A stretch of DNA of 64,000 nucleotides from Homoserinimonas aerilata (GTDB taxonomy: Bacteria > Actinomycetota > Actinomycetes > Actinomycetales > Microbacteriaceae), in assembly GCF_006716125.1 (NCBI RefSeq), contig NZ_VFOM01000004.1, positions 68,419-132,418 on the forward strand, in the 5' to 3' direction. A model generated the notes under the pieces. That model made no database searches. It saw only the letters and a program-made list of their open reading frames with translations, and was not told the DNA's origin. Position 1 is the first letter of the stretch. The number at the start of each line of letters is the position of its first letter. The translations under genes and the position numbers were made by a program. This document shows positions 38,543 to 58,181 of this stretch, in pieces.

Positions 38543-38585
38543 GACAGAACAGCATCATGACCGAGACAGACACGGGGGAGAGAGC

Positions 38586-40675: not shown

Positions 40676-41844
40676 ACGAGACGCAGGGGGCCGGGCGCAT
40701 CAATGTGATGAAGCCGTGGATGGGGGAGGAAGAACTGCGAGCAGTCGCAGAAGTGATCGAGTCGGGGTGGGTTGCGCAGGGTCCTCGCGTGGCCCGCTTC
40801 GAAGCAGCATTCGCCGCCGCAGTCGAGGCAGACCATGCGGTCGCCACGTCGAGCTGCACGACCGCGCTGCATCTCGCCCTAGTCGTCGCCGGGATCGGGC
40901 CCGGCGACGGCGTAATCGTGCCGTCATTCTCATTCATAGCGACGGCCAACGCAGCAGGCTATGTCGGCGCACGGCCCCTGTTCGCCGACGTCGACCCCGT
41001 CACAGGAAACGTGACAGCCGAGACGATCGAGGCGGCCCTCACCCCCGACACGAGGGCTGTCATCGTCGTCGACCAGGGCGGGGTGCCGGTCGACCTCGAC
41101 CCGATCCGGATGCTGTGCGACCCCCTCGGGATCGTCGTCATCGAGGATGCGGCGTGCGGTGCGGGGTCAACGTATCGCGGGCATCCGGTCGGCTCAGGTG
41201 CTGTGCTCACGGCGTGGTCGTTCCATCCACGCAAGCTGCTCACGACGGGCGAGGGCGGGATGCTCACGACCTCGGATGCCGCGTGGGCGGAGCGGGCGCG
41301 CCGGTTGCGCGAGCACGCGATGAGCGTCTCGGCGAAGGACCGCCAGGCGAGCATTCTCGCCCCGGCCGAGGAGTATCTGGAGATCGGTTTCAACTTTCGC
41401 ATGACCGACCTGCAGGCGGCGATCGGGCTCGTGCAGCTCGACCGCCTGCCGGAGGTCGTGCGGCGGCGGCGCGAGCTGGCCGCCGAATATTCCGCGCGGC
41501 TCGGTGATGTGCCCGGGCTGCGCGTGGTCTCTGACCCCGACTGGGGCACGAGCAACTTCCAGTCGTTCTGGGTCGAGGCGCTGCCCGAGTGCGCGACCGA
41601 CCGCGACGGGTTGCTCGAGGCCCTGGCCGGGGCCGGAGTCTCGGCCAGGCGCGGCATCATGGCCGCCCACCGGCAGCCCGCCTACCGCGGGCGCGAGACG
41701 GGGGGCGCCGCGCTTGAGGCGACGGAGCGGCTCACCGACAACACGCTCATCCTTCCGCTGTTCCACCAGATGACCGAGGCGGAGCAGCGCCGCGTCATCG
41801 AGGCGCTCGCGGGTGCCACCATCCGGCAGGAGGGTGCGGCGTGA
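40672..41844 (+). CDS. DegT/DnrJ/EryC1 aminotransferase 1 (PglE-like)
   Basis: 390 residues. A fold-type I sugar aminotransferase: the PLP lysine is in WSFHPRKLLTTGEGG, with TSSCTTALHLAL and PSFSFIATANAAGYVGARPLFADVD at the front. This wording is typical of PglE/PseC-type enzymes that put a 4-amino group on a UDP-4-keto sugar. The start is ATG 40672, overlapping the epimerase stop. A second, different DegT enzyme lies two genes downstream, so the repeat unit may hold two amino sugars or one diamino sugar. Confidence 0.94.
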   Translation: MNETQGAGRINVMKPWMGEEELRAVAEVIESGWVAQGPRVARFEAAFAAAVEADHAVATSSCTTALHLALVVAGIGPGDGVIVPSFSFIATANAAGYVGARPLFADVDPVTGNVTAETIEAALTPDTRAVIVVDQGGVPVDLDPIRMLCDPLGIVVIEDAACGAGSTYRGHPVGSGAVLTAWSFHPRKLLTTGEGGMLTTSDAAWAERARRLREHAMSVSAKDRQASILAPAEEYLEIGFNFRMTDLQAAIGLVQLDRLPEVVRRRRELAAEYSARLGDVPGLRVVSDPDWGTSNFQSFWVEALPECATDRDGLLEALAGAGVSARRGIMAAHRQPAYRGRETGGAALEATERLTDNTLILPLFHQMTEAEQRRVIEALAGATIRQEGAA

Positions 41845-42482
41845 GCGAGCTGTTGCTGCTGGGGGCGAGCGGTCTGGCGCGTGAGGCGCTGGCCGTGCTC
41901 AGGAAGCAGGGCGAGCACACCGTGCTCGGCTGCCTCGATGATGACCCGACGACCTGGGATCGCGAATACGATCGGATGCTCGTGTTCGGCGGCATCGAGC
42001 AGGTCGAGCGCTTTCCGGGTGCGAAGCTGCTGGTCTGCGTCGGCAAGGGCAGCCACAGGGCGACGCTGTCGCAGCGCCTCATCGCGCTCGGCCGCGACGA
42101 CCACGATTATGCGACCGTCATCGACGAGAGTGTGTCGATCCCGGCGGGCTGTCTCGTGGGCGCGGGCAGCATCCTGCTCGCCGGTTCTGTTCTCACCACC
42201 AACGTGACAATCGGCCGCCATGTGGTCGTCATGCCCCATGTCACGCTCACGCATGACGCCTTTGTCGAGTCGTTCGCCACGCTCTGCGCCGGCGTCACCC
42301 TGGGCGGCAATGTGCTCGTCGGCGAGCGCTCCTATCTGGGCATGAACTCGAGCGTGCGCGAGGGGCTGCGGGTGGGGCGCGACGCGGTGCTGGGCATGGG
42401 CGCGGTGCTGCTCGATGAGTTGCCGCCCGGGCAGACGTGGGCCGGCGTGCCCGCGCGGCAGATTCTGAGGGCCGCGTCATGA
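41841..42482 (+). CDS. NeuD/PglD-type sugar O/N-acetyltransferase
   Basis: 213 residues. An N-terminal Rossmann-like PglD_N part (LLLLGASGLAREALAVLR) is followed by left-handed beta-helix hexapeptide repeats (VSIPAGCLVGAGSILLAGSV, VTLGGNVLVGERSYLGMNSS). NeuD/PglD proteins acetylate amino sugars or sialic acids with acetyl-CoA. It probably acetylates the product of the neighbouring aminotransferase. The GTG start overlaps the previous stop. Confidence 0.92.
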   Translation: MSELLLLGASGLAREALAVLRKQGEHTVLGCLDDDPTTWDREYDRMLVFGGIEQVERFPGAKLLVCVGKGSHRATLSQRLIALGRDDHDYATVIDESVSIPAGCLVGAGSILLAGSVLTTNVTIGRHVVVMPHVTLTHDAFVESFATLCAGVTLGGNVLVGERSYLGMNSSVREGLRVGRDAVLGMGAVLLDELPPGQTWAGVPARQILRAAS

Positions 42483-43618
42483 GGGTTCCCTTTGTCGATC
42501 TCGTCTCCCAGCAGGCCGAGATCGCTGCCGAGGTTCTGCCGCTGTGGCAGCAGATCTTCGAGACGGCGGGGTTCATCGGCGGTGATCATGTCGAGTCCTT
42601 CGAGCGCGATTTCGCCTCCTTCACGGGTGTGCGGCACTGCGTCGGGGTCGCGAACGGCACGGATGCGCTCGAGTTGGCGTTGCGGGCGGTCGGGGTCGAG
42701 CCCGCCGGCGAGGTGATCATTCCGGTGAACACGTTCATCGCGACGGCGGAGGCCGCGTCGCGGATCGGCGCGGTTCCCGTCTTCGTCGACGTCGACCCGC
42801 AGCAGTTGCTCATCGACCCTGACGCGGTCGCCGCGGCCGTGACCTCGCGAACGCAGGCGATCATCCCCGTGCACCTGTACGGCCAGGTCGCGCCTGTCGG
42901 CCGGCTGCTGCCGATCGCCGCTCGCCACGGCCTTCCGATCGTCGAGGACAATGCGCAGGCGCAGGGGGCGTCGGATGCCTCGGGTCGGGCAGGCGGATTG
43001 GGCACGATCGCCGCGACAAGCTTCTATCCGGGCAAGAATCTGGGGGCCGCGGGTGACGCGGGCGCGGTGACGACGGATGACGCGGGGCTGGCGCAGATCG
43101 TGCGCGAGCTCGGCGCCCACGGCAGCGCCGTCAAATACGTGCACAAGCGCATCGGCGTGAACTCGCGGCTGGATGCCATCCAGGCCGTCGTGCTGTCGGC
43201 CAAACTGAAGCGCTTGGAGGGTTGGAATGCGCTGCGGCGCGCGGCCGCCGACCGCTACCGCGAGCTCCTCGCCGACCGTGACGATGTGCGGGCGCCCCTG
43301 TCGCGGCCGGGCTCGCTCGACGTCTGGCACCTCTACGTCGTGCAGGTGGAGGAGCGCGAGCGGATGCTCACAGCGCTCGGCGCCGCGGGCGTCGGTGCCG
43401 GCATCCACTATCCGACCCCGCTGCATCTGACGGAGGCCTACGCGGGTCTCGGCCATCGGCGCGGCGAGTTCCCGGTCGCGGAGGCTGCGGCCGGGCGTCT
43501 GCTCTCGCTGCCGATGTTCCCGCATCTCTCGGCTGAGCAGCAGGAGTATGCGGTCGATTCGATTCCGAAGGGGGCAGCGAATGTCGAGTTCTACGACGAG
43601 CAGATCGAGGTCGCGTGA
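42479..43618 (+). CDS. DegT/DnrJ/EryC1 aminotransferase 2 (WlbC/FdtB-like)
   Basis: 379 residues. It begins MRVPFVDLVSQQAEI; GVANGTDALELALRAVG, IPVHLYGQVA, EDNAQAQGA and the PLP lysine in SFYPGKNLGA identify the family. This pattern is that of 3-keto-sugar aminotransferases (WlbC, FdtB, QdtB), matching the WlbA-like dehydrogenase three genes upstream. The ATG overlaps the acetyltransferase stop. Confidence 0.94.
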   Translation: MRVPFVDLVSQQAEIAAEVLPLWQQIFETAGFIGGDHVESFERDFASFTGVRHCVGVANGTDALELALRAVGVEPAGEVIIPVNTFIATAEAASRIGAVPVFVDVDPQQLLIDPDAVAAAVTSRTQAIIPVHLYGQVAPVGRLLPIAARHGLPIVEDNAQAQGASDASGRAGGLGTIAATSFYPGKNLGAAGDAGAVTTDDAGLAQIVRELGAHGSAVKYVHKRIGVNSRLDAIQAVVLSAKLKRLEGWNALRRAAADRYRELLADRDDVRAPLSRPGSLDVWHLYVVQVEERERMLTALGAAGVGAGIHYPTPLHLTEAYAGLGHRRGEFPVAEAAAGRLLSLPMFPHLSAEQQEYAVDSIPKGAANVEFYDEQIEVA

Positions 43619-44687
43619 GCTGTCAGGTGCCGACAAAGGCCAGCCGCCCATCGTGTCGGTCGTCATCCCCTGCTACAACTACGGACGGTTCCTGGCGAGC
43701 TGCGTTCGCAGCGTCGTCTCTCAGGAGGGCGTGCGCACGCGGGTACTCGTGATCGATGACGCCTCGAGCGATGATTCGACGACGATCGCGGCGGGGCTTG
43801 CTGACGAGCATCCGCAGGTCGAGGTTCTCGTCCACGAGGTGAACAGGGGGCACATCGCCACCTACAACGAGGGGCTGCTCGAGTGGGCGTCGGGCGACTA
43901 CGTCACCCTGCTGTCGGCCGATGACGAGCTGCCCGCGGGGTCGCTCGCGCGCTCGGTGCGCCTGATGGAGGCGAACCCCGGAGTGGGCATGGTCTACGGC
44001 GGCATCGAGGAGATCAGCGACATCTCCGCGCCTGCGTCGGGCTCGAATCGGCGCGCGCGGGCGACCGTTCACTCCGGCCGAACGTGGCTGCGCAGGCGCT
44101 GCCGCGAGGCCGTGAACGTCGTGCCGACTCCCGGCACGGTGCTGCGGCTCGGGGTCCAGCAGGGCGTCGGCGGCTACGACCCGCTCCTCACGCACGCCGG
44201 CGACTTCGACATGTGGCTGCGGGTCGCCCTCGTCTCCGACATCGGCTACATCGGTGGCCCGCCACAGGGCCGCTACCGCATCCACGACTCGAGCATGAGC
44301 CACGAGGTGTACACGGAGCCCCTCGCCGACGTGCGGCAGCGCAAGCTCGTCTTCGACAGCCTCTTCGCGGGCCACGCCGACGCACTCACGCGCGCCGGGA
44401 TCGACGCCGAGCCCACCTACGCGCGCCTTGCGGGGCATCCGCTCTGGTGGGCCTGCCGAGCGCACGAGAAGGGGCAGCCGGATGCGACGGCCATCGAGGA
44501 GTGGCTGGCCTTCGCCCGCGAGACGCACCCCGCCGTCGAATCGCTCCGGCCGTATCGGGCGCTGCGCCGGCGGCAGCGACTGGGTGCGGCGTTCTGCCAC
44601 CGCACGCAGCTGTTCGTGGGCACGGCGATCGTGCGTCGCCTCGCCAACTCGTGGTGGTGGTTCCGGTGGAAGAGATTCGGGGGCTGA
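43581..44687 (+). CDS. Glycosyltransferase family 2
   Basis: 368 residues. A GT-A domain starts at about residue 27 (VSVVIPCYNYGRFLASCV), with VLVIDDASSDDS and the metal-binding acidic pair in LLSADDELPAG. The C-terminal half (from about 230) is basic and of unknown role. The ATG at 43581 has GGGGG upstream and lies inside the end of the preceding gene (38-base overlap). Confidence 0.9.
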   Translation: MSSSTTSRSRSRELSGADKGQPPIVSVVIPCYNYGRFLASCVRSVVSQEGVRTRVLVIDDASSDDSTTIAAGLADEHPQVEVLVHEVNRGHIATYNEGLLEWASGDYVTLLSADDELPAGSLARSVRLMEANPGVGMVYGGIEEISDISAPASGSNRRARATVHSGRTWLRRRCREAVNVVPTPGTVLRLGVQQGVGGYDPLLTHAGDFDMWLRVALVSDIGYIGGPPQGRYRIHDSSMSHEVYTEPLADVRQRKLVFDSLFAGHADALTRAGIDAEPTYARLAGHPLWWACRAHEKGQPDATAIEEWLAFARETHPAVESLRPYRALRRRQRLGAAFCHRTQLFVGTAIVRRLANSWWWFRWKRFGG

Positions 44688-44691
44688 GACG

Positions 44692-45942
44692 ATGACATCG
44701 ACCACGCCTCTCGTGGCACCCGCGCGAGCGGTTCGCCATCTGAGCTCCCGGCTCGCGAAGGCGGTCTCCATCGTGCGCCGCGACGGCCCGCGCGCGTTCG
44801 CGCAGCGCTTGGCACGCCTCGCCTACATCCGGCTGGGCGCGGCGACCCTCGCCGAGCCACTGCTCGACGACGACGTCGCCGACTCCACCCAGCTCGAGCT
44901 CGCCGTACCGACGGTTCGACCCGCGCGCGGCGAGGCGCTGACGATCGGCTGGATCATGACGCCGCCGAGCGCCGGCTCCGGAGGGCACACGACGCTGTTC
45001 CGGATGGTCAGGGCCGCCGAGGAGGCCGGCCACCGTTGCGTGCTGTTCCTGTATGACCGCTATGCCGGCGACATCCGGGCTCAGGAGCGGGTCATCCGCG
45101 AATGGTGGCCCGATCTGCGTGCCGAGGTTCGCAACGCCGTCGACGGCATCGATGGTGTCGACGCGTGTGTCGCCTCGTCGTGGGAGAGCGCCCATGTGCT
45201 GGCCCGCCGCGGTTTCTCGCCCATGCGGCGGCTCTATTTCATCCAGGACTACGAACCGTTCTTCTATGCGCGCGGCGCCATGTATGCATTGGCGGAGGAC
45301 TCGTACCGTTTCGGCTTCCGCTGCATCGCGCTGGGTGAGATGATCGCCGGGCTGCTGCGCAGCGAGATCGGCGTCGAGCCCGATGTGACCGAATTCGGAT
45401 GCGACACCACGGTGTACCGGCTGCTGCCGGAGCGCGAACGCTCCGGCGTCGTCTTCTTCGCGCGCCCCGATTTTCCGCGCCGCGGGTACTGGCTGGCGCG
45501 CCTCGCCCTGCAGCGGTTTCACGAGCTGCACCCGGAGCAGGAGATCCACTTCTACGGCTCACGGATCGCGGGCCTGCCGTTCCCGACGACGCAGCACGGC
45601 AGGCTCAGCGCCGAGCAGCTCAACACGCTCTACAACTCCTGCATCGCCGGGCTCGTGCTGTCATTCACGAACGTGTCGCTCGTGCCGGAGGAGATGCTCG
45701 CGGCGGGGGCGATCCCCGTCATGAACGACGAGGCGCACGCGAAGCTCGTGCTGCAGAACGAGCACGCCGTGTGGGCCGCGCCGACCCCCTCCCGACTCGC
45801 GACGGCGCTCAGCGAGGTCGTCACGAGGCCCCGCATCTCGGAGACGGCGCGCGCCGCATCCGAGTCCGTGCGCGGGGTCGGATGGGCTCGGGCGCAGGCC
45901 GACATCGTGCGGATCATCGAGGACGAGGTGTACGGGCTCTGA
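44692..45942 (+). CDS. Glycosyltransferase, WsaF-like (GT4-related rhamnosyltransferase type)
   Basis: 416 residues. After an 80-residue basic N terminus come IGWIMTPPSAGSGGHTTLFR, YFIQDYEPFFYARGAMYALA and a GT-B C-terminal domain with FYGSRIAG and LVPEEMLAAGAIPV. These segments match WsaF-type rhamnosyltransferases; the actual donor is not proven. Start: ATG 44692, four bases after the previous stop; the open frame extends upstream but in another phase from the preceding gene. Confidence 0.85.
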   Translation: MTSTTPLVAPARAVRHLSSRLAKAVSIVRRDGPRAFAQRLARLAYIRLGAATLAEPLLDDDVADSTQLELAVPTVRPARGEALTIGWIMTPPSAGSGGHTTLFRMVRAAEEAGHRCVLFLYDRYAGDIRAQERVIREWWPDLRAEVRNAVDGIDGVDACVASSWESAHVLARRGFSPMRRLYFIQDYEPFFYARGAMYALAEDSYRFGFRCIALGEMIAGLLRSEIGVEPDVTEFGCDTTVYRLLPERERSGVVFFARPDFPRRGYWLARLALQRFHELHPEQEIHFYGSRIAGLPFPTTQHGRLSAEQLNTLYNSCIAGLVLSFTNVSLVPEEMLAAGAIPVMNDEAHAKLVLQNEHAVWAAPTPSRLATALSEVVTRPRISETARAASESVRGVGWARAQADIVRIIEDEVYGL

Positions 45943-45990
45943 CGCCCGTCACACCGGAACGACGCGCGAGAACACGAGGGGGGAGGGGAC

Positions 45991-47604
45991 ATGCCAGAAC
46001 AGACAGGCACGCAGCAGCCGGATTCGATAGGGCGCCAGGCGGCCTCCGGCGTGCTGTGGCTGATCGTGCAGAAATGGGCGATCAGGATCACGGGCTTCGT
46101 CACGATCGCCGTGCTCACCCGCTTTCTCAGCCCGGAGGACTTCGGCACCGTCGCCGCCGCATCCACCATGCTCCCCTTCTTCTATCTGCTGGCCGATCTG
46201 GGATTCGCCGCCTACATCGTGCAGGCCGACACAACGGACCGCCGGATGCTGAGCACCGGGTTCTGGTTCTCCACGGTCGCCGGTCTGCTCCTGGCCGGGG
46301 CGCTCATCCTGTGCGCTCCCCTCGTCGGGCTGGTGTTCCGCTCGGAACAGATCGTGCCCGTGATGCAGGTGCTCTCGCTCGCCGTCGTGTTCACGGCGAC
46401 GGCATCCGTTCCCATGGCACTTCTGCGGCGCGGGATGCGGTTCCGGGCGATCGCCGCGCAGGGCAGTGTGGCCGCCGTGGTCGCGCAGGTCGTGGCGGTG
46501 GGGATGACGCTCGCGGGTCTCGGCGTGTGGGCGCTGGTCGGGCAGATCCTGGTCTCGCTGTTCCTGACCGCCGTGCTCGCCTGGGTGGCCGCCCGCTGGC
46601 GGCCGGCCTTCGCATTCTCCTACGCCGAGTTCCGTGTCATGGCGCGCTTCGGCAGCCAGGTGCTCGGCGTCGAGTTCGTGGCCATGTTCCGCGCCTGGGC
46701 CGAGGCGGCCATCATCTCGACCGTGCTCGGCATGGCGGCGCTCGGCTATCTGAACATCGCGCAGAGGCTCGTGCAGATCGTGCAAGACCTCACGGGGGCG
46801 GCGCTCGTTCCGGTCTCCACGGTCGCGTTCGCGAAGATCCGGGGCTCCTCCGAGCGGCTGCGCAGCGCCTACCTCAAAGCGCTCCGGATGACGTACGCGG
46901 TCATGTCCCCGCCCCTGACTCTTCTCGCGGTGGCGGCACCGCTGGTGATCCCCATCGTCTTCGGCGACGGCTGGGAGCAGAGCGCGCGCGTCGCCCAAGT
47001 GCTCGCCCTCGCCGGTCTGCTGGTCGTCGGGGCGACCCTCGACCACGGTCTCTTCTACGGCCTCGGCAGGCCGGGCCGGTGGTTCCTCTACGCGCTGTTC
47101 ATCGACGCCTGCACCGTCGCGGCCACCGCGCTGACCGCGCAGTGGGGGCTCGAGGCCGCCGCCTACGGCTTCCTCGCCGTGGCCGTGCTCGCCACCGTGA
47201 GCCGCTGGTTCCTCGTCGCCCGGCTCCTGCAGACGTCGCCGAGAACCCTCGCCGGGCCTTTCGGCTTCCTCGCCGCCGCAACCATCTGCGGGGGCGGGGC
47301 CGGATGGCTGGTGCTCGCACTGACCGACGGCCTCGCCCCCCTCGTGCGCATCCTGCTCATCGGCGTCGCCGTGCTGCTCGCCTATCTCGTCATCGTGCGC
47401 CTGCTCGCCCGCCAGCTCGTCTCAGAGTTGCGCGCGTATCTGCCCCGCCTCCCGGCGAAGCTCGGCGGACAGAAATCCGGCCCGGCAGCATCCGACCTAG
47501 CAGCATCCGACCCTGCGGCATCCGCCTCATCAGCATCCACACCAGCAGCATCCGTCCCATCGATGCCGGCCCCGGCCGGTTCCGAGCTGAAGGAGCCCTC
47601 ATGA
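45991..47604 (+). CDS. Polysaccharide flippase (Wzx, oligosaccharide-lipid translocase)
   Basis: 537 residues with about 12-14 membrane helices between 17 and 470. RQAASGVLWLIVQKWAIRI and FLSPEDFGTVAAAS are typical of the WzxC/polysaccharide export branch of MATE-like flippases. It would flip lipid-linked repeat units to the outer face. The cytoplasmic tail (about 480-530) is a low-complexity Ala-Ser-Pro run encoded by repeated GCATCC hexamers. The stop overlaps the next start. Confidence 0.94.
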   Translation: MPEQTGTQQPDSIGRQAASGVLWLIVQKWAIRITGFVTIAVLTRFLSPEDFGTVAAASTMLPFFYLLADLGFAAYIVQADTTDRRMLSTGFWFSTVAGLLLAGALILCAPLVGLVFRSEQIVPVMQVLSLAVVFTATASVPMALLRRGMRFRAIAAQGSVAAVVAQVVAVGMTLAGLGVWALVGQILVSLFLTAVLAWVAARWRPAFAFSYAEFRVMARFGSQVLGVEFVAMFRAWAEAAIISTVLGMAALGYLNIAQRLVQIVQDLTGAALVPVSTVAFAKIRGSSERLRSAYLKALRMTYAVMSPPLTLLAVAAPLVIPIVFGDGWEQSARVAQVLALAGLLVVGATLDHGLFYGLGRPGRWFLYALFIDACTVAATALTAQWGLEAAAYGFLAVAVLATVSRWFLVARLLQTSPRTLAGPFGFLAAATICGGGAGWLVLALTDGLAPLVRILLIGVAVLLAYLVIVRLLARQLVSELRAYLPRLPAKLGGQKSGPAASDLAASDPAASASSASTPAASVPSMPAPAGSELKEPS

Positions 47605-48959
47605 CCTCCCGCGCCGCGACCCCGCCGCATGTGCTGATCATCGTGCAGAATCTGCCGGTACCGCTCGACCGCCGGGTCTGGCTGGAGTGCCAGGCCCTCG
47701 TGGCCCGCGGCTACAGCGTCAGCGTGATCTGCCCGAAGGGGCCCGGCGACCCCGCACATCAGCTGCTCGACGGCGTCAGCATCCACAAGTACGCCCCCGC
47801 GCCCGAGGCGAAGGGGCTCCTCGGCTTCGTGTGGGAGTTCGCGTACAGCTGGGTGCGCACCGCCTGGCTTTCGCTGAAAGTACGCCGGATGCAGCGCTTC
47901 GATGTGATCCAGGCCTGCAACCCGCCGGACACCTACTGGCTGCTCGCGCTGCTGTGGCGCCCCTTCGGCGTCGACTTCGTGTTCGACCACCACGACCTCA
48001 ACCCCGAACTGTTCGTGTCGCGCTTCGGTGAGCCGCGCGGCGGCCTGAAGGCGCTTGAACACCGCGGCCTGCTCTGGCTCGAGCGCCGCACCTTCCGCGC
48101 CGCGCAGCACGTGATCTCGACCAACGAGTCGTACAAGGCGGTCGCCATCCGGCGAGGAGGCCGCATGCCCAGCAAGGTGACCGTCGTTCGCAGCGGGCCA
48201 GACACCCGGCAGATGCGCCCCATCCATCCGGACCACCCCCGCCCTGCCGGCGAGATCAACCTCGTCTATCTCGGAATCATGGGGCCGCAGGACGGCGTCG
48301 ACCAGGTGCTGCTCGTCGTCGACGAGCTCGTGCACCGTCGCGGCCGCAGCACCGTGACGGCCACACTGCTCGGATTCGGCGACTGCCTCGAGGAGCTGAA
48401 GGCCCAGTCGACGGCGTTGGGGCTCGACGACCATGTGAGCTTCACCGGTCGGGTCGACCGGGCCGAGATCGCGGAGCATCTCAGCCGCGCCGACATCGGC
48501 CTCTGCCCCGATCTGAAGACCCCGCTCAACGAGCTGTCGACGATGAACAAGACCATGGAGTACATGGCCTACGGGCTGCCCGCCGTGTCGTTCGACCTCA
48601 CCGAGACCCGCGTCTCGGGCGGCGACACCCTCCTCTATGTGCCCTCCGGCGATGTGGCGGCGTTCGCGGATGCGGTCGAGGCGCTCATCGACGACCCCTC
48701 GCTTCGCGCGCGGCTCGGCCGGGCGGCCCGGGCCCGCGTCTCCACACTCCTGGACTGGCGGCCGCAGGCCACTGCCTACGTCTCCGTCTTCGACCGGCTG
48801 ACCGGCTTCGCACCGCTCGAGGTCACGCCCGTGACCGAAGCGGATGACGCATCCGACACCGATCCGCAGGGGCGGCGCTACGTCGACCTCGACGACGAGA
48901 CCGGGTTCGAGCGCTATCTCGTCGAGCGCGGCGCAGACGCAGAGCGGGGCGCACGGTGA
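47601..48959 (+). CDS. Glycosyltransferase family 4
   Basis: 452 residues. A GT-B fold: PVPLDRRVWLECQALVARGY at the front, DHHDLNPELF in the middle, and the donor-site segment LNKTMEYMAYGLPAVSF-like (TMNKTMEYMAYGLPAVSFD) near 330. An extra C-terminal tail of about 45 acidic residues follows. The ATG overlaps the flippase stop (ATGA) and its own stop overlaps the ligase start, so this gene links the assembly genes to the carrier-protein cassette. Confidence 0.93.
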   Translation: MTSRAATPPHVLIIVQNLPVPLDRRVWLECQALVARGYSVSVICPKGPGDPAHQLLDGVSIHKYAPAPEAKGLLGFVWEFAYSWVRTAWLSLKVRRMQRFDVIQACNPPDTYWLLALLWRPFGVDFVFDHHDLNPELFVSRFGEPRGGLKALEHRGLLWLERRTFRAAQHVISTNESYKAVAIRRGGRMPSKVTVVRSGPDTRQMRPIHPDHPRPAGEINLVYLGIMGPQDGVDQVLLVVDELVHRRGRSTVTATLLGFGDCLEELKAQSTALGLDDHVSFTGRVDRAEIAEHLSRADIGLCPDLKTPLNELSTMNKTMEYMAYGLPAVSFDLTETRVSGGDTLLYVPSGDVAAFADAVEALIDDPSLRARLGRAARARVSTLLDWRPQATAYVSVFDRLTGFAPLEVTPVTEADDASDTDPQGRRYVDLDDETGFERYLVERGADAERGAR

Positions 48960-50551
48960 CGGCGATCAGAACGCACCTCCACGACCTACTCGCACAGGCG
49001 GCCGCGGCGACTCCTGCCGCGCCCGCGCTGAGCTACCGCGGCACGACCGTCGACTACGAGGAGGTCTGGCGGATGTCGCGCACGGCCGCAGCGCAGCTGC
49101 TCACGGTGGGCCTGCAGCGCGGCGACCGGGTGGCGATCTACCTCGAGAAGCGCATTGAGACGGTCGTGTCGATCTTCGCCGTCTCCGCCGCCGGGGGCGT
49201 GTTCGTGCCCGTCAACCCCGTGCTCAAGCCGACCCAGGTGTGGCACATCCTCAGCGACAGCGGGGCGGAGGTGCTCGTGACCTCGGCCGAGCGGCTGCCG
49301 CAGCTCGCGGCCATTCTGCCGGCCACGCGCATCACGCAGGTCATCGTCGTCGGTGACGGGGCAGCATCCGACCGCACGGCATCGGGTGACATGGCAGCAG
49401 ACGGCGCAGCGTCCTTGTTGCTCCACCGCTGGGAGCACGGCCAGCTCGCGGCAGGCGAGCCGGCGTCCTCCTCCGCGATCGACGTAGACCCGGCGGCCAT
49501 CCTGTACACCTCGGGCAGCACGGGCAGCCCCAAGGGCGTCGTCGTCAGCCACCGCAACCTGATCGTCGGCGCAGAGAGCGTGAGCAGCTATCTGGGCAAC
49601 ACGAGCGACGACGTCATCCTGAGCGTGCTCCCCCTCAGCTTCGACGCGGGCCTCAGCCAGGTGACGACGGCGTTCTCCGTCGGCGCGCACTGCGTGCTCA
49701 TGAACTACCTGCTGCCGCGTGAGGTGCCGCGGCTGTGCGAGCAGTACGGCGTCACAGGGCTGACCTGCGTTCCGCCGCTGTGGCTGCAGCTCGCCGACCT
49801 GGACTGGCCGGAGGAGACCGCGCAGAGGCTGCGCTACTGGGCGAACACGGGCGGGCGGATGCCCCGGGCCACACTCGATCGGCTGCGCGGGGTGTTCACG
49901 ACCGCCGAGCCGTACCTCATGTACGGCCTCACGGAGGCGTTCCGCTCCACCTATCTCGACCCCGCGGAGGTCGACCGTCGACCCGATTCGATCGGGCGGG
50001 CCATCCCGAACGCCGAGGTGCTCGTGCTGCGCCCCGACGGCACCCCGTGTGCACCCGGCGAGGAGGGCGAGCTCGTGCACCGCGGGGCGCTCGTCACGCT
50101 CGGCTACTGGAACGACCCCGTGCGCACCGCGGAGAGATACCGCCTCGTGCGGCACCCGCAGTGGCGCGCCCCCGAGACCGCGGTGTGGTCGGGCGACACG
50201 GTCGTGGCCGATGCGGACGGCTTTCTGTATTTCGTGGGCCGGAAGGATCACATGATCAAGACATCCGGCTACCGGGTGAGCCCCGACGAGATCGAGGAGG
50301 CCGCCTACAGCACGGGCCTCGTGCGCGACGCGGTCGCCCTCGGCGTCGACGACCCGGCACTCGGGCAGAGGATCGTTCTCGTGGCCACGCCGACGGCAAC
50401 CGGTCTCGACGTCGTCGCGCTCACCGCGGCCCTCAAGAAGCTCCTGCCGCTCTACATGGTGCCCTCGCGCATCGAGCTGCGCGAGGAGCTGCTCCGCTCG
50501 CCGAACGGCAAATACGATCGCACCCTTCTCGCCGAGGAGGTCGTGGCATGA
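48956..50551 (+). CDS. AMP-dependent acyl/aminoacyl ligase, exosortase-A-locus type
   Basis: 531 residues of the ANL superfamily. P-loop LYTSGSTGSPKGVVV is at about 183-197, MYGLTEAFRSTY is the A5 region, and IKTSGYRVSPDEIEEAAYS with the C-terminal lysine in SPNGKYDR completes the set. It resembles the acyl-CoA ligase that accompanies exosortase-A polysaccharide loci. It would activate an amino acid or acid as adenylate and load it on the carrier protein encoded two genes downstream. The GTG start overlaps the GT4 stop; the stop overlaps the decarboxylase start. Confidence 0.92.
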   Translation: MTAIRTHLHDLLAQAAAATPAAPALSYRGTTVDYEEVWRMSRTAAAQLLTVGLQRGDRVAIYLEKRIETVVSIFAVSAAGGVFVPVNPVLKPTQVWHILSDSGAEVLVTSAERLPQLAAILPATRITQVIVVGDGAASDRTASGDMAADGAASLLLHRWEHGQLAAGEPASSSAIDVDPAAILYTSGSTGSPKGVVVSHRNLIVGAESVSSYLGNTSDDVILSVLPLSFDAGLSQVTTAFSVGAHCVLMNYLLPREVPRLCEQYGVTGLTCVPPLWLQLADLDWPEETAQRLRYWANTGGRMPRATLDRLRGVFTTAEPYLMYGLTEAFRSTYLDPAEVDRRPDSIGRAIPNAEVLVLRPDGTPCAPGEEGELVHRGALVTLGYWNDPVRTAERYRLVRHPQWRAPETAVWSGDTVVADADGFLYFVGRKDHMIKTSGYRVSPDEIEEAAYSTGLVRDAVALGVDDPALGQRIVLVATPTATGLDVVALTAALKKLLPLYMVPSRIELREELLRSPNGKYDRTLLAEEVVA

Positions 50552-51774
50552 AGCCGCACGATCACGCCGCCGCATTCGGCACGGCCGACGGAGAGCTCAG
50601 GGTCGGCGGGATGCCCCTCAGCCGGCTTGCCGCCCGTGTCGGCTCGACACCGTTCTTCGCCTACGACCGCGGGCTGCTCGACCGGCGCATCGACGAACTG
50701 CGCGCAGCGTTCCCCGAACGCCTCGAGCTCAGCTACGCGATGAAGGCGAACCCCATGCCGGCCATCGTGCAGCATCTGGCGAACAGGGTCGACCGCATCG
50801 ACGTCGCATCCGGGCTCGAGCTGCAGGCCGCGCTCGACACGACCATGCGCAGCGAGCGGATCAGCTTCGCCGGCCCCGGCAAGTCGCCCGCCGAGATCCG
50901 GCAGGCCGTCGCATCCGGAATCATCGTCGAGCTCGAATCGCGCACCGAATTCGATCGCGTGATCGCCGCCGGCGACGAACTCGGGCTCACACCGAATGTC
51001 GCCATCCGGGTGAACCCCGACTTCGCGGTGAAGGGCTCCGGGATGCGGATGGGCGGCGGGCCGCAGCAGTTCGGCATCGACGCAGAACAGGTGCCTGCGG
51101 TGCTGCGCGACTATGCGGCCGCCGGCGTGAACGTGCTCGGCTTCCATGTCTTCGCCGGCTCGCAGAATCTCGCCGCGGCCGTCATCGCGGAGGCGCAGCG
51201 GCGCACGGTCGACCTCGTCAGCAGCCTCGCCGAACACCTGGCCACCCCGGTGCGCTACCTCAACCTGGGCGGCGGATTCGGCATCCCGTACGTGGAGAAG
51301 GACCAGCCGCTCGAACTGCAACTCGTCGCCGACAACCTGCACGACCTCGTCGACGGGCCGGTGGCCGAGCGGATGCCCGAGGCCACGCCGGTCATCGAGC
51401 TCGGCAGATATCTGGTCGGGGAATGCGGCGTCTACGTCACGCGGGTGCTCGACCGCAAGGATTCGCGGGGCACGACCTTCCTGGTGGTGGACGGCGGCAT
51501 GCACCACCAGCTCGCCGCCTCCGGCAACTTCGGCCAGGCCATCCGCCGCAACCACCCGCTCGTGCTGGGCAACCACGTCGGACGCCCGCTCACCGAACGC
51601 GCCACCGTCGTCGGCTGCCTGTGCACCCCGCTCGACCTGCTCGGCGACCACGTCGAGCTGCCCGAGGCGGAGATCGGCGACCTCGTGGTCATCTTCCAGG
51701 CCGGGGCCTACGGCCTCACCGCGAGCCCGACGGCGTTCCTCGGCCACCCCGCACCGGCGGAGGTCATCGTGTGA
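50548..51774 (+). CDS. PLP-dependent decarboxylase, fold type III, exosortase-A-locus type
   Basis: 408 residues of the ornithine/DAP/arginine decarboxylase family. The PLP lysine is K66 (LSYAMKANPMP), NLGGGFGIPY near 240 binds phosphate, and GECGVYVTRVLDRK and VDGGMHHQLA follow. Members linked to polysaccharide loci may decarboxylate a free or carrier-bound amino acid. Being translationally coupled to the ligase and followed by a carrier protein, it likely produces the amine-bearing group of the decoration (inference). Confidence 0.93.
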   Translation: MKPHDHAAAFGTADGELRVGGMPLSRLAARVGSTPFFAYDRGLLDRRIDELRAAFPERLELSYAMKANPMPAIVQHLANRVDRIDVASGLELQAALDTTMRSERISFAGPGKSPAEIRQAVASGIIVELESRTEFDRVIAAGDELGLTPNVAIRVNPDFAVKGSGMRMGGGPQQFGIDAEQVPAVLRDYAAAGVNVLGFHVFAGSQNLAAAVIAEAQRRTVDLVSSLAEHLATPVRYLNLGGGFGIPYVEKDQPLELQLVADNLHDLVDGPVAERMPEATPVIELGRYLVGECGVYVTRVLDRKDSRGTTFLVVDGGMHHQLAASGNFGQAIRRNHPLVLGNHVGRPLTERATVVGCLCTPLDLLGDHVELPEAEIGDLVVIFQAGAYGLTASPTAFLGHPAPAEVIV

Positions 51775-51838
51775 GAGGCCCCAACGCATCCGCCCAGCCA
51801 CATTTTGACCAGCCACGTCTCGACCACAAGGAGCAGTC

Positions 51839-52096
51839 ATGACAACAACCCTCGACGCCGTGCGCGGCGTGCTGATCGAGTCACTCGAACTCAGCCAGAG
51901 CCCCGACGAGCTGAAGGAGGACACCGCGCTGTTCGGCTCGCTGCCGGAGCTCGACTCCTTCGGCGTCGTGCAGTTGGTGACGTCGATCGAGGACCGCTTC
52001 GACATCACAGTCGACGACGACGAGTTCGGCGCCGAGATCTTCGAGACGGTGGGCACGCTCACCGGATTCGTCGATGCCAAGCTCGCCGCTGCCTGA
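51839..52096 (+). CDS. Acyl carrier protein
   Basis: 85 residues. The 4'-phosphopantetheine site is S40 in ELDSFGVVQL, with acidic helices around it (EDRFDITVDDDEF). AAGGAG precedes the ATG. It is not the fatty-acid ACP context: it sits inside the ligase-decarboxylase-asparagine-synthase cassette and should carry the substrate for that pathway. A 4'-phosphopantetheinyl transferase is not in the window. Confidence 0.94.
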   Translation: MTTTLDAVRGVLIESLELSQSPDELKEDTALFGSLPELDSFGVVQLVTSIEDRFDITVDDDEFGAEIFETVGTLTGFVDAKLAAA

Positions 52097-52097
52097 C

Positions 52098-53867
52098 ATG
52101 CGCGGCCCGCTCGGGACCCTGCCCGGTTTCATCGCGCACGGCAGCGACGACGCCGGGCGCATCAGCGCGCTCCTCGAGCATCCTGCCGTCTCCATGGCGA
52201 GCTGCGGGCCCGTGAGTCTGGCCTCGTGGGGGCTGGATTCGCTGGGCCCCGCCCCGGCGTTCGCCCTGTCGCGCGTGATCCGCTCTGATCGCGGCGCGGT
52301 TGCACCCGCCGAGATCGTGGACGCGATGCGTGACGACCCGGCAGCCCTGACGCGCCTGCTCCCGCCGTTCGCCGCCGTCGCGGGCGACGAGCGGGGTGTG
52401 ACGATGGTCGCCGATTCGATGGGGTTCCGGCAGCTCTTTCACAGCGCACCGGATGCCTCGGGCACACCTGTGCTGTCGACCTCGGCGCTGCTCGCGGGCC
52501 GGGCGCGCGCCGCCGAGCTCGATGACACCGCGGTGGCCGTGCAGTCGCTGCTCGGCTGGCAGCTGGGACGGCGCACACTGTTCCGCGGCATCGAGAAGCT
52601 CGCCGAGGGCGCCGTCGCCCGCATCGATGCGCAGGGGCTGCGCATCGACCCGGCCCCCGCTGAGGCGGACGAGCGGGTGTCGCTCGACGACGCCGTGGCG
52701 AGCGCTGCTGCGCTGCTGCGTGCCTCCCTCGAAGCGCTCCTCGACGATCATCCGGATGCCGTTCTGCAGCTCACCGGCGGCCAGGACTCCCGCATCCTGC
52801 TCAGCGCCATCCCCGCCTCCCGTCGGCGCGGGCTGCGGGCGATGACCCTGGGAGGCCCCGGCAGCGGCGATGTGCGCGTCGCCCGAGACCTCGCGGCGCG
52901 CTACGGTCTGCGGCACGAGGCGCACGACTTCGCTGCGCTCGATGCGGTGAGCCCCGCGGATGCGTGGGGCCTGGTGGCGGATGCTGCGGTGCGGCTCGAC
53001 GGAATGGCCGACCCGGTCGCGCTTGCTGCTCTCTCCGTCGCCGAGCGCAACTTCGAGCAGGGGGTGCGGATCTCGGGCCTCGGCGGCGAGGTCGCCCGCG
53101 GCTTCTACTATCTGGGGGCGGTGCGCGACCGCCCGTTCACGCGGATCGACTCAGAACAACTCGCGTCCTGGCGCATGTTCGCGAACGAGTCGGTCGAGCC
53201 GGGCCTCCTCGGCAGCGAGTTCGCCGGCTGGGCCCGCAGCGTCGCCGACGACGAACTCGCCTCCGTCATGGCGGCGGCGAGCGAGGAGTGGTTCCGCGCG
53301 ACCGACGATCTCTACCTGCGGCACCGGATGCAACGCTGGGCGGGAGCCACCGACACGGCCGTCGGCCACGACCGCGTCGTCGTGAATCCGATGCTTTGCC
53401 AGCACTTTCTCAGTCTCGCCTCTCGGCTGTCACCGGGGGACAAAGCCCACTCTCTTTTTCTCGCCCGACTGCAGCTCGAACTCGACCCCGAACTGGCCCG
53501 GATTCCCCTCGAAGGTCGGCCCGCCCCGATCGCCATGGCCCACCCCACCCCGTGGCGCTCGGTGACCGGCACGGTGGGTGCGGCGCTGCGCCTGTCTCGC
53601 AAGGCGACCCAGCGCATCCGGAACAGGAATCGGCCTCCGGCCGGGGGTTTAGAACTTGCCGGGCGCGTGGTCGAGCACTGGCGTGAGAACCCCGCGCTTC
53701 TCTCCTCCGCGCGCCTTCCCGGCTATGTCGAGCAGGACTGGATCGACGGTGTGCTTGCCGGCCGCATCACGCCGCGACCCAGCTCGGTCGCCTTGCTCAC
53801 GAACCTGCTCGTGGCAGGCGGCGCGACGGTGCGAGAGGCTCGACCATCCGACCGAACGGCGAGGTGA
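52098..53867 (+). CDS. Asparagine-synthase-like ATP-dependent amidotransferase/ligase
   Basis: 589 residues. The ATP-pyrophosphatase loop LTGGQDSR is at about 224-231, followed by the synthetase domain (ISGLGGEVARGFYY; PMLCQHFLSLASRLSPGDK). The N-terminal region has the glutaminase-like fold pattern but lacks a Cys2 nucleophile, so glutamine hydrolysis is unlikely. It may form an amide using a free amine, like beta-lactam synthetase-type relatives. I start at ATG 52098, two bases after the ACP stop; ATG 52074 would overlap ACP by 23 bases. Confidence 0.9.
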   Translation: MRGPLGTLPGFIAHGSDDAGRISALLEHPAVSMASCGPVSLASWGLDSLGPAPAFALSRVIRSDRGAVAPAEIVDAMRDDPAALTRLLPPFAAVAGDERGVTMVADSMGFRQLFHSAPDASGTPVLSTSALLAGRARAAELDDTAVAVQSLLGWQLGRRTLFRGIEKLAEGAVARIDAQGLRIDPAPAEADERVSLDDAVASAAALLRASLEALLDDHPDAVLQLTGGQDSRILLSAIPASRRRGLRAMTLGGPGSGDVRVARDLAARYGLRHEAHDFAALDAVSPADAWGLVADAAVRLDGMADPVALAALSVAERNFEQGVRISGLGGEVARGFYYLGAVRDRPFTRIDSEQLASWRMFANESVEPGLLGSEFAGWARSVADDELASVMAAASEEWFRATDDLYLRHRMQRWAGATDTAVGHDRVVVNPMLCQHFLSLASRLSPGDKAHSLFLARLQLELDPELARIPLEGRPAPIAMAHPTPWRSVTGTVGAALRLSRKATQRIRNRNRPPAGGLELAGRVVEHWRENPALLSSARLPGYVEQDWIDGVLAGRITPRPSSVALLTNLLVAGGATVREARPSDRTAR

Positions 53868-53922
53868 GGCGTGTCGTCAGCTTGACCCGGGGGCATACGT
53901 CGGTTCTAATTGACAGGTCATG

Positions 53923-53943
53923 TTGCCCCTCGAATGGGGGCAA
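53923..53943. promoter_or_regulatory. Inverted repeat TTGCCCC-N6-GGGGGCAA with nearby G-run half-sites
   Basis: Arms TTGCCCC and GGGGCAA. Half-sites GGGGGCATAC (near 53890) and GGGGGTAC (near 53956) flank it, and TTGACA at 53910-53915 could be a -35 box. Similar to the repeats at 31973 and 32029. The 53868-54053 gap contains no gene. Confidence 0.5.
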
Positions 53944-55607: not shown

Positions 55608-55613
55608 TCAACC

Positions 55614-55675: not shown

Positions 55676-56557
55676 CTACCACTCGAGCAGCGTCAGTTCG
55701 CTGTACAGATAGTCGATGCCCTGGGCTGTGACCTCGGCGCTGCGGAACATCTTCGCGCGCGGGGCCTTCAGGGTGACGCCAAGGGCGGGAACGCGGCCGA
55801 GCACGCGATGCTCCGCGAGGGTCGCCACAGCGCCGCCGAGCAGCAGCCGCGACGCGATCTGCGGCCACGCCGTCGCGAGGAGCGCCGCGCTGCCGCCGAG
55901 GTACAGCGGCGAGGCGAACAGCGGGAGGCCCTTGCGTCGGTCGCGACGGTAGACGAGGTACGCATACTCCTCGCCGTCGACCGCGAGGAGATGGCGGGCC
56001 GCCGGGGCGTCGCGGTGGTCACGGAACAGCCGCGCATCCGCCCCCGTGAGCGTCCGTTCGATCGTGGCCGCATCATCCGTCACCTCGAGGCCTCGCCTCG
56101 GCAGGCTCGGAAGATTCACGAGCAGGCGGGTCGTCGTGTCGAGCGGCACGAAGCCGAGCCTCCTGTTCAGCTCCACCACGTTGCCGCTCGGTGAGAGATC
56201 GGTGAACTCGAAACCCTTCTGGCCGAGGATGGCGCGCAGCAGCCGAAAGCTCTGCGCGCGGTGCTCCTCGCGAACGCAGAACGCCGCCAGGTTGCAGAAG
56301 CGGCGCCGCACACCCTCCACCTCGCGCTCGGAATAGACGGCGATGTAGACGCCCACGATCTCGGCGCCACCCTGAGCATCCGTGCCCGCCACAAGCTGGA
56401 AGCCGCTGTTGGGGGCCTCCGCCTGCCAGGGCGGATCGAGCAGCGCAGCCCACGCCGAGAGCGGCACGCGAGGGTTCAACTCGGCCGACAGAAACCGGGC
56501 GACCGCCTCGGCATCACCCCGTGCGATCGGCCGAACCTCGATCTCTCCTCGAGTCAT
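55676..56557 (-). CDS. GNAT-family N-acetyltransferase
   Basis: 293 residues, probably a GNAT fold in the N-terminal half (EVRPIARGDAEAVARFLSAEL, FQLVAGTDAQGGAEIVGVYIAVY, LAAFCVREEHRAQSFRLLRAIL) and a second, divergent half ending LGRVPALGVTLKAPRAKMFRS. It is the only minus-strand gene in the core of the locus. The leaderless promoter TAATAT stands seven bases before the ATG. Its substrate is unknown, possibly a sugar of the polymer. Confidence 0.75.
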   Translation of the reverse strand: MTRGEIEVRPIARGDAEAVARFLSAELNPRVPLSAWAALLDPPWQAEAPNSGFQLVAGTDAQGGAEIVGVYIAVYSEREVEGVRRRFCNLAAFCVREEHRAQSFRLLRAILGQKGFEFTDLSPSGNVVELNRRLGFVPLDTTTRLLVNLPSLPRRGLEVTDDAATIERTLTGADARLFRDHRDAPAARHLLAVDGEEYAYLVYRRDRRKGLPLFASPLYLGGSAALLATAWPQIASRLLLGGAVATLAEHRVLGRVPALGVTLKAPRAKMFRSAEVTAQGIDYLYSELTLLEW

Positions 56558-56564
56558 GCTGCGA

Positions 56565-56657: not shown

Positions 56658-57530
56658 ATGCCGAGCGTCGTGATCGCCGCGCACAACGAGCAGAATGTGC
56701 TCGGGGCGAGCCTCAGCGCGCTGTTGGGCCAGGCGGTGTCGGAGCCGCTCGAGATCATCGTCAGCGCGAACGGGTGCACCGACGACACGGTGGCCGTGGC
56801 GACGCGCGCCGGCGTCACCGTGATCGACCGCCCCGAGCCGGGAAAGGCCGCCGCGCTCAACGCGGGCGAGCGGCTCGCGCACTACTTTCCCCGCATCTAT
56901 CTCGATGCCGACATCCTGGTTCCGCCCGGCGGTCTCGCCTCGGTCACCGGCCGCTTCTCGCATCCGCCATACCCACTCGCGGTGGTTCCGCGGCGACGCC
57001 TCGACACCTCCGGGCGCCCCTGGCCTGTTCGCGCGTACTGCGCGATCAACGAACGGCTGCCGGCGTTCAGAAACGGCCTGTTCGGGCGCGGGATGATCGC
57101 ACTCTCAGAGCAGGGCCGCAGCCGCTTCGACTCCTTCCCGGCCATGATCGCCGATGACCTGTTTCTCGACTCCCAGTTCGCCGATGCCGAGAAGGCGGAG
57201 GCGAGCGACGTCGAGGTCGTCGTCGCCGCCCCGTTCACGACGCGCGAACTGCTGAACAGGCTCGTGCGGGTGCGCCGCGGTAACGCCCAACTGCGCGCGG
57301 CCGCCACAGCCGGCGCGGTCGACGTTGCGGTGCGCCCGGCCGATCGCTGGGCCTGGCTGCGCCATGTGGTGCTGCCGACTCCCCGGCTGGCGTTTGCCGC
57401 GGTGCCCTATGTCGTGATCACGTTGCTGGCGGGGCTGCTCGCCCGGCGCACGGTCCGGGCGGGCGACGGGTGGGGGCGCGACGAGAGCACGCGCGGCGCG
57501 CCACCGGCGACGAACGGGGCGGCCACATGA
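56658..57530 (+). CDS. Glycosyltransferase family 2 with C-terminal membrane segment
   Basis: 290 residues. The GT-A domain begins SVVIAAHNEQNVLGASLSAL; ANGCTDDT and YLDADILVP carry the nucleotide- and metal-binding acids; a hydrophobic segment (about 235-262) may anchor it. ATG 56658 has GAAGGGA upstream. Its stop overlaps the deacetylase start. It is the first gene of the second plus-strand group of the locus. Confidence 0.9.
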   Translation: MPSVVIAAHNEQNVLGASLSALLGQAVSEPLEIIVSANGCTDDTVAVATRAGVTVIDRPEPGKAAALNAGERLAHYFPRIYLDADILVPPGGLASVTGRFSHPPYPLAVVPRRRLDTSGRPWPVRAYCAINERLPAFRNGLFGRGMIALSEQGRSRFDSFPAMIADDLFLDSQFADAEKAEASDVEVVVAAPFTTRELLNRLVRVRRGNAQLRAAATAGAVDVAVRPADRWAWLRHVVLPTPRLAFAAVPYVVITLLAGLLARRTVRAGDGWGRDESTRGAPPATNGAAT

Positions 57531-58181
57531 TCGCCAACATCTGCTTTCACGGCATCGGCACGATCATCCGCGAACGTGAACCGGGCGAGGCGCGCTACTG
57601 GGTCACAGAGGGCAGTTTTCTGCGCATCCTCGATGAGCTCCGCGAGAACCCCCGCGTGCGGCTGAGCTTCGATGACGGCAACGCCTCGGATGCCTCGGTG
57701 GCGCTTCCGGCACTGCTCGAGCGAGGTCTCCAGGCGACCTTCTTCGCGCTCGCCGGCCGCCGCGACGACGCCGCGAGCCTCTCACCGGCAGACCTGCGCG
57801 AGCTGCGCGGCGCCGGGATGCAGATCGGCAGCCACGGTTGGGAGCATGTGCCGTGGCGCGGTCTGAGCGACGCCGAGGCACGCCGCGAGCTGATCGACGC
57901 CCGCACCGCCCTCGTCGAGGCCAGCGGCGGCCCCATCGATGACGCCGCGCTCCCCGCTGGGGCGCTACGACCGCCGCCTGCTGGCCCGGCTGCGGCAGGC
58001 CCGGTACCGCACCGTGTACACGAGCGACCGCCTCCCGGCCAGGCCCACCTCGCACATCCAGGCGCGCTACAGCGTCACGGCACTCGACACGGCAGAGTCG
58101 GTGCGCTCCCTCGTGGAGCATCGCCCGGGCATCCGGGATCTTCGCAACCTCGCGGCGAGCGCGGTGAAGAGGCTCCGGTGA
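57527..58181 (+). pseudogene. Polysaccharide deacetylase (NodB type), single frameshift
   Basis: About 217 residues if repaired. The first part reads MIANICFHGIGTIIRER through LSFDDGNASDASVALP (catalytic Asp-Asp) and IGSHGWEHVPW (metal histidines). The frame then breaks at the CCCC run 57952-57955; dropping one C joins it to LGRYDRRLLARLRQARYRTV in the other phase, ending at 58181. Its ATG overlaps the GT2 stop, and the repaired stop overlaps the next gene's GTG. If the shift is real the enzyme loses its last third; a sequencing error is more likely given the pattern downstream. Confidence 0.8.

Follow-up and report, generated by a model that had tools for sequence, protein, structure and literature searches.

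What is made by a ligase, a decarboxylase and a stand-alone carrier protein encoded side by side in an actinobacterial exopolysaccharide locus, and which other genes belong with them? The question arises from a stretch of 64,000 nucleotides of the Homoserinimonas aerilata genome (contig NZ_VFOM01000004.1, positions 68,419 to 132,418 of the forward strand), here called the window, to whose numbering the coordinates below refer. Four consecutive plus-strand genes in it encode an adenosine monophosphate (AMP)-forming ligase (48956..50551), a pyridoxal phosphate (PLP)-dependent decarboxylase (50548..51774), an acyl carrier protein (ACP; 51839..52096) and an asparagine-synthase-like protein (52074..53867). 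A first-pass annotation, made from the sequence alone, had reported these four genes at this place, and their presence there was borne out. The best-supported unit, however, consists of the ligase, the decarboxylase and the ACP together with a tandem-GNAT acyltransferase (55676..56557, minus strand) and a NodB-type polysaccharide deacetylase (57530..58178, plus strand). We propose, with a probability of roughly 0.55, that this unit forms a carrier-protein pathway by which an amino sugar of the exopolysaccharide receives an aminoacyl group, either as an addition or in exchange for another group.

Composition and distribution of the unit

The distribution of the genes was surveyed in 398 Microbacteriaceae genomes, the window genome (2.84 Mb, 6 contigs) included. 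A cassette genome was defined by a TIGR03099 decarboxylase match over the cut-off, which was found in 11 of the 398 genomes and gave the window locus plus 10 related loci. Ligase, decarboxylase and ACP genes are adjacent in that order in all 11. The GNAT (E ≤ 1e-10) is present in exactly these 11 genomes, and strong deacetylase matches (at least 262 bits) were likewise obtained in exactly these 11; the next genome, G022, reached 149 bits, and seven more stayed below 48 bits (G denotes a genome and L a locus throughout). The chance that one set of 11 among 398 equals another is about 1e-21 under the assumption of independent genomes, which these are not. The cassette genomes are spread over 9 of 85 genera, and four other listed genomes of the window's own genus are devoid of the GNAT. 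The annotation had come closest to this result in an aside on an acyltransferase of the locus: the constant partner is a GNAT, but it is accompanied by a deacetylase, and both genes lie outside the four that had been named.

A second sample was obtained by scanning named genomes with an alignment of the decarboxylase. The best 80 of at least 472 relatives were kept as named loci, 6 of them from genomes already in the family sample, and their flanks were searched with profiles built from the window's family; many of the contigs stop within the flank. The ligase gene is followed directly by the decarboxylase gene in 74 of the 80 loci and the decarboxylase gene by the ACP gene in 49. The GNAT was detected within the flank in 45 loci. 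The deacetylase accompanies it in 39 of those 45 (in L117 with only 61 bits) and was found in none of the other 35. The GNAT gene stands directly upstream of the ligase gene on the same strand in 20 of the 80 loci, and an uninterrupted row of GNAT, ligase, decarboxylase and ACP is seen in 19. In the Microbacteriaceae loci the GNAT gene is either encoded on the opposite strand or found at another place in the locus, at distances of up to about 8.5 kb from that of the ACP; in G130 it is on another contig.

A natural control is provided by G200, a genome that has the polysaccharide locus without the cassette, the GNAT and the deacetylase. Most of the polysaccharide locus is kept, with the asparagine-synthase-like gene directly after a GT4 glycosyltransferase gene. 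No ligase, decarboxylase, ACP or GNAT was found in the 20 kb of this locus that were read, the deacetylase profile finds nothing there, and G200 is not among the genome-wide TIGR03099, GNAT or deacetylase matches. A deacetylase candidate in G200, obtained with a fused-frame query, was rejected because the match belongs to the second half of the query, which is the following gene.

The fourth gene of the original assignment was ruled out as a core component by its distribution. At E ≤ 1e-30 it was found in 8 of the 398 family genomes, namely 7 cassette genomes and the cassette-free G200, and is absent from 4 of the 11 cassette genomes; in the named sample it occurs in 15 of 80 loci. The proposal that the four genes form a unit was therefore not upheld, nor was the assignment of the amide-forming step to this protein. 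A survey of the four-gene order had been suggested, and for its first three members the order recurs throughout the family loci, whereas the fourth gene directly follows the ACP gene in only 7 of 11. In the window it overlaps the end of the ACP gene by 23 bases. The encoded protein starts with MPSSP and has no cysteine at position 2, its first cysteine being internal at residue 44; the annotated lack of the glutaminase cysteine is thus confirmed, subject to an uncertain start codon. It has no Pfam match and only weak NCBIfam matches of at most 32 bits (macrolactam cyclase, asparagine synthase and an amidotransferase). A PDB sequence search with this protein and with the GNAT gave no match at E ≤ 1. 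Its predicted structure (mean predicted local distance difference test score, pLDDT, 85.8) has carbapenam synthetase, TsnB9 and beta-lactam synthetase as nearest folds, at about 15% identity, and the ATP-pyrophosphatase-type motif LTGGQDSR is kept. Most likely it makes another, optional amide.

The two constant partners were characterized further. The GNAT belongs to an unnamed family, has no Pfam match, and its start is uncertain (many homologues have 288 residues). The AlphaFold2 model (mean pLDDT 94.8) gave 253 PDB structure matches at E ≤ 0.001; the titles of the 50 listed name a GNAT/acetyltransferase or an N-myristoyltransferase in nearly every case, whereas 2hv2 is titled as of unknown function. 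The phosphate-binding motif mostly reads R-x-x-(S/G)-x-(R/K), and all 46 sequences have arginine or lysine as its final residue, where GNATs that use coenzyme A (CoA) usually have glycine or alanine. This alteration fits a non-CoA donor, although it is not proof of one. In G089 a second GNAT paralogue (L059:10014-10856), about 43% identical, was observed beside the large DUF4082 protein in the same polysaccharide region. The deacetylase matches PF01522 with 60 bits in the window open reading frame and with 76 bits in the relative L030, and appears by eye to have no signal peptide. Its metal motifs are well kept (FDDG in 36 of 38 sequences, the second, HxxxH, in 34 of 38).

The reading frame of the deacetylase changes in the window near 57954-57961. 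Positions 44837-64000, the end of contig C4, correspond to the end of contig C5 over 19.2 kb with 99.5% identity and 78 gap positions; these are overlapping contig ends, and a single open deacetylase frame is present on the C5 end (L012:11117-11764). Because the ends overlap, a frame shift in either copy must be regarded with suspicion. On the C5 copy the ligase match falls into two pieces. The ligase and decarboxylase copies on C5, considered as possible paralogues, were ruled out on account of the same overlap.

Ligase, decarboxylase and carrier protein

The ligase gene has a GTG start and overlaps the preceding glycosyltransferase gene by 4 bases. In a profile search the protein scored 707 bits with TIGR03098 (ligase_PEP_1 of NCBIfam; cut-off 592.35). 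All other NCBIfam models, among the 25 of 106 matches listed, scored far lower and under their own cut-offs, including those for fatty-acyl-CoA ligase (285 bits) and nonribosomal peptide synthetases (NRPS). The decarboxylase scored 560.8 bits with TIGR03099 (dCO2ase_PEP1 of NCBIfam; cut-off 478.45) and 241.5 bits with the LysA model, under its cut-off of 297.9; the further models listed for it likewise scored far lower and did not reach their cut-offs. Both family names had been put forward from the sequence alone and agree with these scores.

The best PDB matches of the full-length ligase are NRPS adenylation domains; in a search with the ligase alignment gramicidin synthase heads the table, and 3wvn is listed at 231 bits. 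With the pocket segment, 3wv4/3wv5 and 3wvn were the sole matches at E ≤ 1e-5. The PDB title of these entries reads only "Non-ribosomal peptide synthetase"; we take them to be VinN. Their Asp and Arg align to Asp230 and Arg330 of the window ligase. If the chain of these structures carries 16 extra N-terminal residues, the aligned Asp and Arg would fall on positions 230 and 331, through which VinN contacts the amino group and the carboxylate, respectively. Conservation was assessed in an alignment of 75 named-locus ligases, one of which occupies two of its 76 rows. All 73 rows that cover position 230 have the Asp, and all 75 that cover position 330 have the Arg, on both sides of the decarboxylase tree described below and in Proteobacteria as well as Actinomycetota. 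Three AMP-ligase paralogues of the window genome have neither residue. According to excerpts of the published work on this enzyme class (PMC11284099), the conserved Asp touches the amino group; VinN loads 3-methylaspartate onto VinL, and the thioester must form before VinO decarboxylates. The same excerpts state that FlvN uses Asp and that the starter unit of fluvirucin B2 is beta-alanine (PMC11284099).

Three loci with GNAT, decarboxylase and ACP (L100, L108 and L114) have a different, shorter AMP-binding protein near the ACP, and L114 has both ligase types. It is possible that the shorter protein replaces the loading enzyme in these loci.

The decarboxylase gene overlaps the ligase gene by 4 bases. 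In the PDB its product is matched best by BtrK, with two entries at 252 and 251 bits, and the best diaminopimelate decarboxylase reached 163 bits. BtrK is titled L-glutamyl-[BtrI acyl-carrier protein] decarboxylase and has LCTP-D in common with the window protein in the alignment. CESGD is typical of diaminopimelate decarboxylases. LCTPLD was found in 80 of 80 named-locus decarboxylases, and the separate LysA-like protein of the window genome has HCESGD at the same place. The portion of the butirosin literature consulted describes BtrK as converting glutamate bound to the carrier BtrI into gamma-aminobutyrate (GABA) by decarboxylation (PMC7857480). The ACP gene follows the decarboxylase gene after a gap of 64 bases. 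The protein matches PF00550 and carries Ser40 in the motif LDSFG; Asp39-Ser40 is invariant in the 11 family cassette loci, and the best PDB match is 2lki (66 bits). The VinN-like pocket and the BtrK-like decarboxylase thus lend support to the earlier suggestion that an amino acid may be loaded on the ACP and decarboxylated there.

Exosortase-type relatives and setting of the locus

In NCBIfam, TIGR03098 and TIGR03099 are named only for their link with exosortase A, and both carry the type hypothetical equivalog; a TIGR03098 ligase typically adjoins a TIGR03099 decarboxylase. In the window genome no match to exosortase (PF09721) was found. Both parts of the annotation on this point, the tie to exosortase-A-type loci and the lack of an exosortase here, were thereby confirmed. 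A search of the open-licence literature found no paper on the function of the two families, nor one on an exosortase with such a ligase, decarboxylase, asparagine synthase and ACP. In the excerpts of a paper on floc formation (PMC9850573), neither "acyl carrier" nor "decarboxylase" occurs, and "ligase" appears only as T4 DNA ligase.

The 21 Pseudomonadota loci that make up one side of the decarboxylase tree of the named loci are referred to as exosortase type. Exosortase and FemAB searches were performed in 50 of the named genomes (11 exosortase-type, 39 other). All but one of the 11 exosortase-type genomes gave a strong PF09721 match. None of the other 39 did; four of them gave weak and short matches of at most 30.5 bits, of which those in G404 and G416 exceed the family cut-off. 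FemAB (TIGR03019) exceeds its cut-off only in the 10 genomes with strong PF09721 matches. It was rejected as a partner in the non-exosortase relatives, where 0 of 39 genomes exceeded the cut-off and the best match gave 58 bits against 260.

A decarboxylase tree of 81 rows (the 80 named loci and the window) shows a well-supported split between 21 Pseudomonadota rows and the other 60, of which 46 have the GNAT. Two rhizobial loci (L098 and L121) nest on the GNAT side and carry the row of GNAT, ligase, decarboxylase and ACP, which makes transfer between phyla likely, as judged from the tree. Fourteen rows on the GNAT side are without a nearby GNAT. Six of these have it elsewhere in the genome or at a contig end (L062, L076, L087, L088, L090 and L110), and eight have no GNAT in the genome (L078, L082, L103, L106, L107, L111, L112 and L118). 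Six of the eight, L103, L106, L107, L111, L112 and L118, form one clade, in which several loci have weak ACP-like open reading frames near the ligase. The Labedaea locus L106 in this clade also contains, by eye, a polyketide synthase (PKS)-like gene and a protein that starts with CGITG in the manner of asparagine synthases; it is possibly a natural-product cluster.

On the exosortase side, 12 of the 21 loci have an ACP-profile match in their flanks. L126 combines ligase and decarboxylase with hydrolases 1 and 2 (TIGR03100 and TIGR03101), an ACP-like protein and an asparagine-synthase relative of a kind that 12 of the 21 loci have in their flanks. It also has two proteins with weak GNAT-like and ATP-grasp-like NCBIfam matches and no Pfam match; they were dismissed as general partners, recurring in 1 and 2 other loci of the 80.

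The four genes of the window belong to an exopolysaccharide locus, whose host part (32316..47604, plus strand) has a priming sugar transferase, a Gfo/Idh/MocA protein, an epimerase, two DegT aminotransferases, a PglD-type N-acetyltransferase, glycosyltransferases and a Wzx-type flippase. The score of a Wzy candidate in the locus was under the Pfam cut-off. A GT4 glycosyltransferase identified by profile matches (47634..48959, plus strand) stands just upstream of the ligase and is a member of the polysaccharide locus outside the core; it adjoins the ligase in 7 of the 10 related family loci and occurs also in the cassette-free G200 locus. Two DUF4082 proteins are encoded in the locus (33755-38542 and 54033-55607), and the larger contains four stretches of DUF4082 and two of Big_5, along with an N,N-dimethylformamidase-beta-like domain.

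Proposed pathway, alternatives and known systems

The catalytic steps, the substrate and the sugar are proposed here from homology and gene context. The ligase would adenylate an Asp-like amino acid, probably L-aspartate via its side-chain carboxylate, and load it onto the stand-alone ACP. The BtrK-like decarboxylase would then strip the free alpha-carboxylate of the ACP-bound acid, probably giving beta-alanyl-ACP or else a closely homologous product, for example GABA-ACP or 3-aminoisobutyryl-ACP. The deacetylase, probably cytoplasmic, would uncover an amine by deacetylating an N-acetylated sugar of a precursor linked to a nucleotide or a lipid, and the tandem GNAT would transfer the aminoacyl group from the ACP to this amine, so that the polymer would carry a primary amine in place of the acetyl group. 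The asparagine-synthase-like protein could optionally add a further amide. The predicted product is an omega-aminoacyl, probably beta-alanyl, substituent on an amino sugar of the polysaccharide. More tentatively, and with less confidence than for the window alone, the five-gene module may swap N-acetyl for N-beta-alanyl (or a GABA-type group) on surface-polysaccharide sugars across Actinomycetota; the ligase-decarboxylase pair of exosortase-A loci might then be explained as the same source of aminoacyl-ACP, perhaps passed to a FemAB-type transferase.

Several observations weigh against the proposed pathway. Co-occurrence shows a unit and not a reaction, and the substrate of GNAT and deacetylase could be another one. 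In 6 of the 45 loci with the GNAT, the flank contains no deacetylase. The clade of six GNAT-less loci (Streptomyces, Saccharothrix, Labedaea and Herbidospora) combines ligase and decarboxylase, but neither these loci nor their genomes contain the GNAT. In none of the 21 exosortase-type loci was this GNAT or deacetylase found in the flank, and the GNAT, the only one of the two searched genome-wide there, is absent from 9 of 10 exosortase-side genomes, G443 having a 127-bit match; because those loci lack it, the GNAT is not needed for the chemistry that they have in common with the window. G073 has a decarboxylase relative of 344 bits, under the cut-off and hence excluded from the cassette counts, with an ACP-like gene beside it and a 27% ligase match 3 kb away in a genome without the GNAT. 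The assignment of an Asp-type substrate to the ligase is a pocket comparison spanning about 140 residues, and the pocket Asp by itself is non-specific, since the NRPS-like paralogue L007 has it and lacks the Arg. Finally, L100 and L108 have the different AMP-binding protein beside their decarboxylase-ACP pair.

Other explanations of the same genes were weighed against this evidence. GNAT and deacetylase might edit N-acyl groups of the same polysaccharide as an independent pair, with acetyl-CoA or another acyl-CoA as donor, and travel with the cassette only through a common type of polymer. GNATs are most often CoA enzymes, and the scattered position of the gene in the family loci, on the opposite strand or another contig, would suit such a pair. 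We nevertheless consider it doubtful, as the GNAT gene directly precedes the ligase gene in a quarter of the named loci, its CoA-phosphate motif is altered, and G200 retains other polysaccharide-locus genes without cassette, GNAT or deacetylase. It is also unlikely that the asparagine-synthase-like protein performs the amide step, by transferring the carrier-bound group or condensing it with a sugar carboxylate, while the GNAT does something else. The position of its gene directly after that of the ACP in seven family loci, its conserved motif, its synthetase-like fold and the occurrence of a relative of another kind in more than half of the exosortase-type loci speak for this role; its absence from four cassette genomes, its presence in G200 and its rarity in the named loci speak against it, whereas in the same 398 genomes the occurrence of GNAT and deacetylase coincides exactly with that of the cassette.

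Transfer of the ACP-bound amino acid outside the cell in a Dlt-like manner, or its delivery into a small natural product instead of a sugar, seems rather improbable. Ligase and ACP do match DltA/DltC-type models and structures, far under cut-off, and the related clade includes the Labedaea pair beside a PKS-like gene. Against this, no MBOAT/DltB-type match was found among the 26 window proteins searched against Pfam, which are part of the window's open reading frames, and the genes lie in a polysaccharide locus with a flippase. Least credible of all is the chance proximity to an ACP of a fatty-acid ligase and a lysine/arginine-type decarboxylase of ordinary metabolism, the case that the first-pass annotation had named as decisive against itself. 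The scores of 285 bits with the fatty-acyl-CoA ligase model and 242 bits with LysA are the points in its favor and are both under cut-off; the specific TIGR families over cut-off, the invariable adjacency of the three genes in the family and a separate LysA-like gene contradict it.

With the proposed aminoacylation pathway retained as the preferred reading, the VinN pocket match and the resemblance of the decarboxylase to BtrK, together with a form of the system that has two constant partners and no exosortase, lead to a testable prediction, a carrier-bound beta-amino acid for N-acylation of a polysaccharide. If true, it would be an unexpected route to primary amines on bacterial surface polymers and would place carrier chemistry of the natural-product type in a polysaccharide pathway. 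The ligase and decarboxylase families are known, though functionally unexplained; the variant without exosortase and with GNAT and deacetylase is new.

The closest functional parallels are VinN-VinL-VinO of vicenistatin and FlvN of fluvirucin B2, in which, according to the excerpts cited above, a stand-alone adenylation enzyme and an ACP are likewise combined with PLP-dependent decarboxylation of the carrier-bound acid (PMC11284099). The pocket Asp and Arg are common to the window ligase and the structures that we take to be VinN. The VinN and FlvN systems differ in feeding a polyketide synthase via a second aminoacylation and an acyltransferase, whereas the window has a polysaccharide locus, a GNAT and a deacetylase. 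In butirosin biosynthesis the carrier is loaded by a different kind of ligase, and the group is transferred to an aminoglycoside. The BtrK-BtrI pair of that pathway resembles the window in its decarboxylase, for which BtrK is the best PDB match, and in the decarboxylation of Glu on a carrier, as stated in the part of the source consulted (PMC7857480). For the accessory protein, carbapenam and beta-lactam synthetases and TsnB9 offer a similar fold at low identity. The predicted GNAT structure has the same fold as the tandem GNATs Eis and MAB_4324 and N-myristoyltransferase, with TM-scores (by query) of 0.34-0.59 and identities of 8-17% among the 50 matches listed. The exosortase-A (XrtA/PEP-CTERM)-associated loci are alike in the two families, for which both window proteins score over cut-off, and in having Asp230 and Arg330 in common. 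They are unlike the window in their partners, an exosortase and FemAB there and a GNAT and a deacetylase here, and the decarboxylase tree separates the two types.

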